A stretch of 34,450 bases of DNA from Candidatus Gastranaerophilales bacterium (GTDB lineage: Bacteria; Cyanobacteriota; Vampirovibrionia; Gastranaerophilales; Gastranaerophilaceae), in contig CALUPM010000015.1 in assembly GCA_944322665.1 (NCBI GenBank), forward strand, positions 1-34,450. The letters are read 5' to 3'. The stretch's first letter is position 1, and each line of letters opens with the position of its first letter. The position numbers were made by a program, and so were the translations under genes. Below, piece by piece: positions 13,625 through 16,379 of this stretch. Below the pieces are notes generated by a model that searched no databases, was not told the DNA's origin, and saw only the letters and a list, made by a program, of their open reading frames with translations.

Positions 13625-14896
13625 ATGCTCTGGTATGTAATTAATATTTCAATAATTGTTGTTTTTATAGCTCTGTTTTTAATAACCAGACAGATGAACA
13701 AAAGATGGTCAAAGATTAACGATTATTTAGGCATGGTCACGAATACCGTCAACTCTGTACGTTACGGGAACCTCTCCACCAAAATCGAAAAAATCGAGCA
13801 TCCGACATACCAGAACGTCACGGACAGTATAAACCGCATGGTCGAAACTCTTAATGACCGCGAAAAAATGATTGTTGAATATCAGGCAGAACTTATCCGC
13901 CAGAACAAACTGCTTGAAAGTGTTATCAACTCGCTTTCGGACGGAATTTTAATCGTAAACGAACAGGGCAATATATTAAGAGCCACCCCGAAAATTATAA
14001 AATGGTTCGGAGTCAAAGGAAATGATATTTTAGGCAAAAATGTTTACGACTACATCGAAATTGCAGACGGAAACACAATCGAAAAACTTTCAGACACGGA
14101 CGTTTACATAAAAAATACTCCGACGAATAATTTTATTATAAATTCCGTCAGGCTTTCACTTGACGACAAAAAACGCTATGTTCTTCTGATAAAAGACGTC
14201 ACAACGCAAAGAGAAATTGAAACATTGAAAGAAGATTTTGTTGCAACACTCACGCACGACCTTAAAGTTCCGATTGTTGCGGAAGCTAATATTCTGAACT
14301 TTCTGATTGACGGCAAATTCGGAGAAATCAACGAAAAACAGAGAGTCGCTCTGTTAAATATGAAATCTTCCAACGAAGAACTGATTGATCTTGTGCAGAT
14401 AGTTCTTGAAACATACAAGGTAAAGGAAACAGGCATTCCGCTTTTAAAAGAAAACATAAAAGTAAACGAATTTTTGACGGAGATAGTCGAAGAAGTCCAG
14501 CCGATTGCGGCAAACGCAGGGCTTGTTATAAACTTCACGCCATCCGAGAAGAATATAACCGTATCTGCAGATGTTATGCAGCTTAAGCGTGTTGTAAAAA
14601 ACCTTATTTCAAATGCGATTTCACACAGCAACACCAAAAAAGATATTGATATTAAAGCCGGAGAAATCACCGGATTTGTGACGATTTCTGTAATAGATTA
14701 CGGACAGGGGCTTCCGCCTGAAGAATTGAAGCTGATTTTCAACAAATATTATTCTGCGGCAAAGAAATTCCGCAAAATAGGAACCGGTTTAGGGTTGTAT
14801 CTTTCGCAGCAGATTGCGAAATCCCACGGCGGCGAGATTACCGTTGAAAGCGAAGAGAATGTCAGAACCGAGTTCTGCATAAAACTTCCTGATTAA
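13625..14896 (+). CDS. Orphan membrane-anchored sensor histidine kinase
   Basis: A 423-residue kinase. One membrane helix (about 3-21) is followed at once by a HAMP-like linker and coiled coil (22-100), with no extracellular sensor. A PAS-type domain (about 97-195) starts ESVINSLSDGILIVNEQG. The HisKA domain has phospho-acceptor H211 in TLTHDLKVP. The ATPase domain has an N box (KNLISNAISHS, about 325-335), a G1 box with DYGQGL (about 358-363) and GTGLGLYLS (386-394). All catalytic elements are present. Signal sensing is probably cytoplasmic through the PAS domain. The neighbours contain no response regulator, so the partner must be encoded elsewhere. The ATG at 13625 follows AAAAGG at a long spacing. 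The foldback element starts 12 bp after the stop. Confidence 0.92.
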   Translation: MLWYVINISIIVVFIALFLITRQMNKRWSKINDYLGMVTNTVNSVRYGNLSTKIEKIEHPTYQNVTDSINRMVETLNDREKMIVEYQAELIRQNKLLESVINSLSDGILIVNEQGNILRATPKIIKWFGVKGNDILGKNVYDYIEIADGNTIEKLSDTDVYIKNTPTNNFIINSVRLSLDDKKRYVLLIKDVTTQREIETLKEDFVATLTHDLKVPIVAEANILNFLIDGKFGEINEKQRVALLNMKSSNEELIDLVQIVLETYKVKETGIPLLKENIKVNEFLTEIVEEVQPIAANAGLVINFTPSEKNITVSADVMQLKRVVKNLISNAISHSNTKKDIDIKAGEITGFVTISVIDYGQGLPPEELKLIFNKYYSAAKKFRKIGTGLGLYLSQQIAKSHGGEITVESEENVRTEFCIKLPD

Positions 14897-14908
14897 TATT
14901 TTTTATTT

Positions 14909-15700
14909 CATAAAATATGTTATTTTAATATATTTTTCATTTAAATTTTATAGTATTTTGATTTGTAAATATTTTTTTATTATGTTCATTCTTTTCTTTT
15001 GTTGCAGTGCAAAAGAAAAAACAATTTTGTCCTGCGCGGACAGCGGCCGCTTTTGGTGGCAAAAGCGGCGGAAAACCAGCCACACGCTTCGTTCACTAAT
15101 AATTTGCAAAGGCTCGGCATAAAGGCGGGTAAACTCGCTACGCTCAAACAATACCCGCCTTTGATATTTACCTCGCCTGCAATTATTGCTCACTCCGCTA
15201 TCGTGGCAAAAATTTCTTTTGTTTATGTCAAAATCTTCCTTGACTATTTGGAATGAAGTAATTTAAAATATTCCAAATCCGACCTTTGCGGAATGAGCAA
15301 TCAATGTTCTGTTTCTCATTGTCAGAGCAAGCTTTGTTTGAGTGCAAAGCACGAGTCAGCTTGCTTTTTGAGAAACAGTTACAATTGATTAGCGAATGAA
15401 GCTCAGGTCGCGGTTTGCGTCGCTTTTCCGTAAAAGCGACCGCCGTCTGCGCAAGACCCGCCGGAGGCTTTATTTAAACTGCTAAGTTGTAAATAAGGGG
15501 CGGAGCAGTCAAGGCAGTGAACCTTACCGCGCAGACCCGCATAACGCGAGCAACCAAGCAAGTGCCCCCGTCCGCAGGACAAAATTGTTTTTTCTTTTGC
15601 ACTGCAACAAAAGAAAAGAATGAACATAATAAAAAAATATTTACAAATCAAAATACTATAAAATTTAAATGAAAAATATATTAAAATAACATATTTTATG
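14909..15700. mobile_element. 792-bp non-coding foldback element with 128-bp perfect terminal inverted repeats
   Basis: The left arm 14909-15036 is the exact reverse complement of the right arm 15573-15700, 128 of 128 bases, after which similarity stops. The outer arm parts are AT-rich, and each arm holds TTTTCTTTTG/CAAAAGAAAA. The 536-bp core is richer in G+C and full of further hairpins: 15046-15069, 15121-15162, 15246-15278, 15299-15390 and 15419-15440. No frame in it looks like a transposase or any protein. TTTTATT occurs at 15701-15707 and at 14901-14907, one base away from the left end, so a target duplication is possible but not secure in such AT-rich DNA. It fits a non-autonomous transposon or MITE-like repeat, probably moved by a transposase coded elsewhere. 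It separates the kinase gene from comF. Confidence 0.85.
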
Positions 15701-15719
15701 TTTTATTAAAAGTTTATTA

Positions 15720-15725
15720 TATAAT
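15720..15725 (+). promoter_or_regulatory. -10 box just before comF
   Basis: TATAAT ends 6 nt before the comF ATG at 15732, with no ribosome binding site between. A leaderless transcript is likely. A -35 at the usual distance would fall on the last bases of the foldback element (about 15697-15702) and is not consensus. Confidence 0.5.
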
Positions 15726-15731
15726 TTATTT

Positions 15732-16379
15732 ATGAAAGATTTTTTAATAGGGCTTTTAGACTGGATTTACAAGAAAAAATGCTACTTCTGCAAACGCTCG
15801 GATGAGTGCGTCAGAATGTGTTCAAAATGTTATGACACCCTTGAACATCTAACCCCGGTTCCTAACAGAGTCGTCCGCGGAAAAGCCGTCTACTGCGCCG
15901 GCGTCTATGACAAAAACCTTCAGAAACTTATCCGCGGGCTTAAATACCACAATCAAAAAGAACTCGCCCGCTATCTTGCAAAATTTATGTATGAATACTG
16001 GCTCAAAATCAACGGCAAAAACAACTTTCAGGTGGTTCCCGTTCCAATTTTCAAAACCCGCGAAAAGAAACGTAAATACAACCACATGAACCTCGTTGCA
16101 GAAGAATTCTGCAATCTTTCCGGCTGCACCCTTAACTGTGATTTGATTAAACGTGTAAAAGATACTAAACCACAATATAAACTTAAAAAACCGGAACGCG
16201 AATTAAACCTTAAAAATGCTTTTGAAGTAAACGAAAATAACCTTCTTCCTATGAAAATTCTGTTACTTGACGACATCTGCACAACCGGTTCAACTTTTGA
16301 AGAAATGATAAAAGAGTTTGAAAACTATAATATTTTTGATATAACATGTTTTGCCGCCACAACCCCGTTTGAGGAATAA
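15732..16379 (+). CDS. comF: ComF-family phosphoribosyltransferase-like protein
   Basis: A 215-residue protein of the ComF/GntX family, cytoplasmic and needed for natural transformation in several bacteria, probably acting on incoming single-stranded DNA with ComFA or PriA. The N-terminus has a zinc ribbon (C17, C20, C30, C33). The C-terminal phosphoribosyltransferase fold has VVPVPIFKTREKKRKYNH (about 101-118) and the PRPP-binding motif ILLLDDICTTGSTFEEM (about 174-190). Length is usual. The ATG at 15732 has no ribosome binding site and a TATAAT 6 nt before it. The next gene begins on the base after its stop, so the two form an operon. The foldback element ends 31 bp upstream and may have changed its control. 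Confidence 0.92.
   Translation: MKDFLIGLLDWIYKKKCYFCKRSDECVRMCSKCYDTLEHLTPVPNRVVRGKAVYCAGVYDKNLQKLIRGLKYHNQKELARYLAKFMYEYWLKINGKNNFQVVPVPIFKTREKKRKYNHMNLVAEEFCNLSGCTLNCDLIKRVKDTKPQYKLKKPERELNLKNAFEVNENNLLPMKILLLDDICTTGSTFEEMIKEFENYNIFDITCFAATTPFEE

Follow-up and report, generated by a model that had tools for sequence, protein, structure and literature searches.

How did a 792-bp segment with long, perfect inverted arms come to lie between two genes of Candidatus Gastranaerophilales bacterium, and how have its arms stayed identical? The segment was studied within a window of 34,450 nt, that is, the whole stretch of DNA analysed (contig CALUPM010000015.1), to which all positions below refer. 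G000 denotes the source genome, and the other G numbers denote its relatives.

13625-14896, plus strand: upstream gene, PAS/HATPase sensor histidine kinase, used as a flank in the empty-site test
14906-14924, plus strand: terminal motif TTTCATAAAATATGTTATT, mirrored at 15685-15703 and common to other copies and other species
14909-15036, plus strand: left arm of 128 bp, the reverse complement of 15573-15700 without a mismatch
14992-15019: 10-bp hairpin TTTTCTTTTG(ttgcagtg)CAAAAGAAAA within the left arm, mirrored at 15590-15617, a module that recurs in several other copies
15474-15572: GC-rich segment with no counterpart in the orthologous element of G007, partly common to the copy G000:C4
15573-15700, minus strand: right arm, matching the left arm perfectly in inverted orientation
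15732-16379, plus strand: downstream gene, ComF-like phosphoribosyltransferase, used as the other flank in the empty-site test

An inverted-repeat search of the assembled contig showed that the two arms are exact reverse complements (128/128) separated by a spacer of 536 bp, and they lie within a wider inverted repeat (14892-15036 and 15573-15717) of 145 nt at 94%, of which the 128-bp part is fully complementary. The two arms were likewise 100% identical across 128 bp in a whole-genome BLAST. This pair was the sole inverted repeat of at least 24 nt in the 34-kb window (arms within 3 kb), and a chance origin is excluded because the window holds no other long inverted repeat. The 792-nt strand folded at -245.9 kcal/mol compared to -94 ± 5.8 kcal/mol for its shuffles (z -26), and the 536-nt core folded alone still reached a z of -6.7; the core is therefore structured independently of the arms. 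The only frame of note, of 85 aa at 14999-15256, had no Pfam match, and no credible protein was found in the element. A preliminary description had reported that the arms match base for base and that no protein is coded, and both points were borne out. At the downstream border, TATAAT occurs at 15720-15725, 6 bp ahead of the ComF-like start codon and outside the element, and the G006 locus, which is empty, has it too; owing to the insertion, the place of a -35 region is taken by the right arm.

Perfect arms could in principle be an artefact of short-read assembly, given that the source genome consists of 102 contigs and has several of these repeats at the end of a contig or close to it. However, in other species, whose genomes were assembled independently, the locus has this same architecture and its arms are imperfect, as are the arms of other copies in the assembly of G000. 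We therefore regard an artefact as extremely improbable.

The core is built from two modules:

15024-15208, minus strand: unit A, about 185 nt, with a large hairpin H1 and a small hairpin H2 (15046-15069)
15132-15151, minus strand: conserved apical loop of unit A, TTGTTTGAGCGTAGCGAGTT, with closing stem GGCGGGTA/TACCCGCC (15124-15131 and 15152-15159)
15275-15473, plus strand: unit B, with hairpins H1 (loop 15334-15357) and H2 (15420-15439), a diverged inverted relative of unit A

Unit A and the reverse complement of unit B were 57-68% identical in cross-matches, and since they are diverged relatives, the core in turn consists of two inverted ~200-nt two-hairpin units. Read in the orientation of the loop, a unit consists of H1, whose apical loop is TTGTYTGAGCGNAGCGAGTT or a longer version of it (e.g. 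GAGTGCGAAGCACGAG), followed by the smaller H2. The loop is constant and the stems vary by module (GGCGGGTA/TACCCGCC, AGCAAGTG/CACTTGCT, GCGGATT/AATCCGC). The loop centre GCGNAGC would correspond to a very stable DNA mini-hairpin. When 30 units were folded column by column as a consensus, the apical stem and inner loop were recovered and nothing more, probably because of the strong variation of the stems; stem pairing was therefore scored copy by copy.

Whole-genome BLAST found 68 matching pieces of the element in G000, including about 15 full or partial copies of unit A at 82-96% identity; the second recurring module was unit B, as 15275-15410 and the piece to the right of it. All 13 of the same-genus genomes searched also contained matches, and farther relatives mostly had none or weak ones. 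The exact loop is common in the genus of G000 and hardly occurs in the rest of the order, a patchy distribution that fits mobility or loss. Single units, inverted pairs and arrays of units all occur. Copies at unrelated loci are bounded on either side by short terminal inverted repeats, CATAAARTATGTTATT, which most unit copies lack. Like foldback elements, the element has long arms in inverted orientation, is dispersed in many copies with empty sites in relatives, and codes for no protein. The earlier reading of a repeated foldback element without its own transposase is thus supported by many copies in genome and genus, and the outcome named beforehand as speaking against it, a single copy at one locus with no empty site, is contradicted by these copies and by relatives with empty sites.

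The empty-site test compared the spacer between the histidine-kinase gene and the ComF-like gene across the genus, most of which keeps this gene order. The spacer was vacant (9-26 bp) in five congeners (G003, G005, G006, G008 and G009) and filled in G000 (835 bp), G007 (591 bp), G012 (746 bp) and G004 (265 bp, a reduced element). In G013 an element arm lies at a contig end at this locus, G011 has an unrelated sequence of 224 bp in the spacer, and the kinase was not found adjoining ComF in G001, G002 and G010. A second locus gave a similar picture: the interval between yraN and recF is filled with 574-755 bp of element in G000, G007, G004 and G012 and is vacant (3-19 bp) in six species (G001, G002, G003, G008, G009 and G010). 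Empty sites, which the preliminary description had proposed to compare between strains, were thus found in relatives at both loci. Two details of the yraN-recF locus were also noted. The yraN stop codon (TCA TAA) is supplied by the terminal CATAA of the element (G000:C69 / L028), and the G006 junction (L183) carries 17 bp, TAATGTATGTTACGTTA, after TTACA, like one terminal motif, which is possibly the footprint of a lost element.

The flanks of the kinase-ComF element are 77-78% identical between G000 and G007. Shared ends and core support the view that the element at this locus derives from one ancestral insertion; alternatively, the G012 element may have inserted independently. A recent insertion is unlikely, because at least four congeners are already filled and the flanks have diverged by ~22%. 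Across loci, flank identity between G000 and G007 spans 77% to 98.6% (L031 vs L072, L048 vs L051), which suggests patchy recombination between the two species.

If a single ancestral insertion is accepted, independent arms would be expected to diverge like the flanks. Instead, the 128-bp arms of G000 show 0 differences against the ~22% divergence of the flanks at the same site. Over the outermost 100 nt at the kinase locus, the left arm of G000 matches the right arm of G000 at 100/100 positions, whereas it matches the left arm of G007 at 62/100. At a third locus (G000:C2, G004:C5), the arms differ between the species past the first 15-20 nt and the left and right arms agree within each (54/60 for left against right in G004, compared to 41/60 between species). 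At yraN-recF, arm agreement within a copy was no better than between species. The interior of that element has changed orientation: a 292-bp piece comprising an arm and unit A is 98.6% identical between G000 and G007 but oppositely oriented, and its flanks are collinear at 85% and 94% identity. We therefore favour the interpretation that the arms of G000 were rebuilt or corrected after insertion, and of the two causes offered earlier for the perfect arms, recent insertion or correction, the first conflicts with the old occupied site and the second is the one retained.

One published account describes two results of template switching between inverted repeats, homogenised arms and inverted spacers (PMC8604942). 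The homogenised arms and the inverted interior described here match these published outcomes of switching during replication. Replication would expose the element as a single strand, its arms would snap together, and the polymerase could leave one arm and continue with the other as its template. Such a switch would rewrite one arm from the other, giving perfect arms and also lengthening them inward, and it could invert the interior as well; arms that exchange templates in this way would consequently evolve in concert. Other routes are conceivable. Since the inner arm sequence of G000 cannot be aligned with that of G007, both arms were possibly replaced jointly by conversion from another copy, and since the identity of the inverted piece exceeds that of its flanks, the inversion could alternatively stem from a recent inter-species exchange or from conversion by another copy. 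Taken together, these results lead us to regard the element as probably an old non-autonomous foldback repeat, in which the inverted units A and B stand within short terminal inverted repeats and the arms are kept in concert by template switching.

The conserved loop extends beyond the order. In a species collection, the loop pattern occurred in at least 116 records, compared to a chance expectation of ~4 (an estimate that assumes uniform composition), and the hosts include Pseudomonadota, Bacillota, Bacteroidota, Nitrospirota and Desulfobacterota. A perfect stem of at least 6 bp adjoined the loop at 74% of 77 sites versus 2.9% of control positions, and stems of at least 10 bp were found downstream of the loop in 40%, upstream in 10% and at random in 3%. 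Stem positions held 556 Watson-Crick, 3 G-T and 1 A-C pairs in the genus set and 548 Watson-Crick, 9 G-T and 3 A-C pairs in the other-phyla set, counts that are somewhat biased in that the alignment offsets were picked by Watson-Crick count. Because G-T pairs make up about 1%, far below the G-U share expected of a selected RNA, the stems look to be maintained as DNA and not as RNA. Among 80 loci in other phyla there was no common neighbouring enzyme, and spurious repeat translations and ABC transporters were seen. One IMG/VR contig (L190, 12.5 kb; 1460-1487), presumptively viral, carries the unit-A loop with a stem side.

These pair counts bear on the proposal that the element is a structured RNA or a source of double-stranded RNA, transcribed and kept for its function. 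Its strong fold and nested conserved hairpins would suit such a role, as would the numbers of terminator-like sites (3 vs 0.9 expected) and promoter-like sites (5 vs 2.6 expected). However, no Rfam family matches the element, G-T pairs make up about 1% of the stem positions, the same locus holds different modules in different species, and congeners do without it at vacant sites. A functional RNA is accordingly very improbable, and the long double-stranded RNA suggested in the preliminary description finds no support in the Rfam search or in the stems.

How the element spreads was approached through searches for a mover. No Y1_Tnp domain (RAYT, PF01797) was found in G000 or in 8 of the 9 same-genus relatives searched, and no DDE_3/IS630 transposase was found in G000, with one stop-interrupted match in G003 only. 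RAYT/Y1 and IS630/DDE_3 were both rejected as movers on account of their absence from G000. A search of 14 genomes with the end pattern revealed no paired ends at transposon-gene spacing, and hence no candidate in those genomes for a parent transposon with the same ends, and carriage by phages or plasmids was rejected as neither collection contained a match. Movement in trans, as first proposed, is therefore unproven: G000 has no RAYT or DDE_3, and no gene-sized element with the same ends was found.

If the element were an ordinary MITE, it would have arisen from a DDE transposon by deletion and been moved not long ago by a transposase acting in trans, and its perfect arms would reflect that recency. 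Such a MITE would be non-coding and multi-copy and would share a terminal motif among unrelated loci, as this element does. A 2-bp TA, AA or TT is moreover repeated at both ends at several sites. At other sites the ends are mismatched, and no consistent target-site duplication emerged; most unit copies lack the terminal ends, and the results of the transposase and end-pattern searches and the occupied congeners with ~22% diverged flanks also argue against it; we consider a MITE of this kind unlikely. More doubtful still is the reading as an array of the REP/BIME type, in which a RAYT (Y1 transposase) would move the units by acting on their hairpins in single-stranded form. The solo, paired and arrayed units and the DNA-level hairpins with constant loop and changing stems recall such arrays, but Y1_Tnp is missing as described above and the units measure 185-200 nt compared to REPs of 20-40 bp (PMC3733652). 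The combination of a constant loop and changing stems was also what brought integron attC sites, which go with integrase core sites and an IntI gene, into consideration.

Returning to the foldback repeat with concerted arms, the conserved loop sits on variable stems, and for this reason a putative structure-reading enzyme, acting in trans on the single-stranded hairpin, is suggested to spread the element. It is also conceivable, and we put it forward tentatively, that the two-hairpin unit, with its 20-nt TTGTYTGAGCGNAGCGAGTT loop, freely variable but strictly Watson-Crick stems and a following pyrimidine/purine hairpin (e.g. ACTTTCTTTTG...CAAAAGAAAGT), represents a pan-bacterial DNA-hairpin family. 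A putative enzyme able to read the structure of single strands would spread it between phyla, and template switching would keep its stems and arms free of mismatches.

Other repeats accompany the element. Positions 1-195 of the window hold a tandem pair of about 105-bp repeats with a hairpin, GAAAAACAACACTCAGTTGTTTTTC, between CCTCTC and CGGCAGAGTGC, and L033 and L042 show a frame much like it in which the stem has different letters (ACAAAACGATACTTAATCGTTTTGT); this is perhaps another family with a conserved frame and variable stems. Many GTCATTCTGAGGGCGAAGCCCGAAGAATC-type palindromic repeats lie beside or inside elements (L030, L032, L033, L034, L037 and L038, next to unit A) and form a second repeat class nested with the foldback elements.

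The orthologous empty, filled and inverted copies offer a natural record of inverted-repeat correction and flipping over bacterial evolution, and the loop, found again in phyla that are unrelated, suggests a family of repeats that is widespread, has no Rfam entry and spreads by a mechanism open to direct testing. Open-access literature searched by sequence or by the spurious peptides FERSEF and HPERSEG yielded nothing relevant, and the family may be described elsewhere.

Among known systems, the BOX repeats of pneumococcus and other modular repeats share the modular make-up and module turnover, whereas the modules of the present element are inverted relatives of one another. Eukaryotic foldback transposons have long inverted arms and an interior with little or no coding; this element is bacterial, and its interior consists of paired hairpin units. 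Like bacterial MITEs and small non-autonomous repeats (PMC2229807), it is short, non-coding, intergenic and multi-copy with terminal inverted repeats and empty sites, but it differs in its far longer arms kept identical, its interior of two-hairpin units, and the lack of a matching transposase in our searches and of a clear target duplication. It resembles REP/BIME sequences (GTAG/CGTC families, PMC3733652) in forming intergenic hairpins that are solo, paired or mosaic, and differs from them in its ~200-nt units, its conserved 20-nt loop and the absence of a RAYT gene from G000. The homogenised arms and inverted spacers are those of quasipalindrome correction by template switching (PMC7202029, PMC8604942, PMC8794818), a process described for short repeats and here inferred for arms of at least 100 bp in a dispersed element family. 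Modular non-coding palindromic repeats are a well-known general kind (PMC2229807, PMC3733652). The new class raised as a possibility in the preliminary description thus holds for the family, which has no match in the databases searched, and not for the general kind (modular palindromic repeat, MITE or foldback), which is known; the best reading is a non-autonomous foldback mosaic, a family new to those databases within a known kind.
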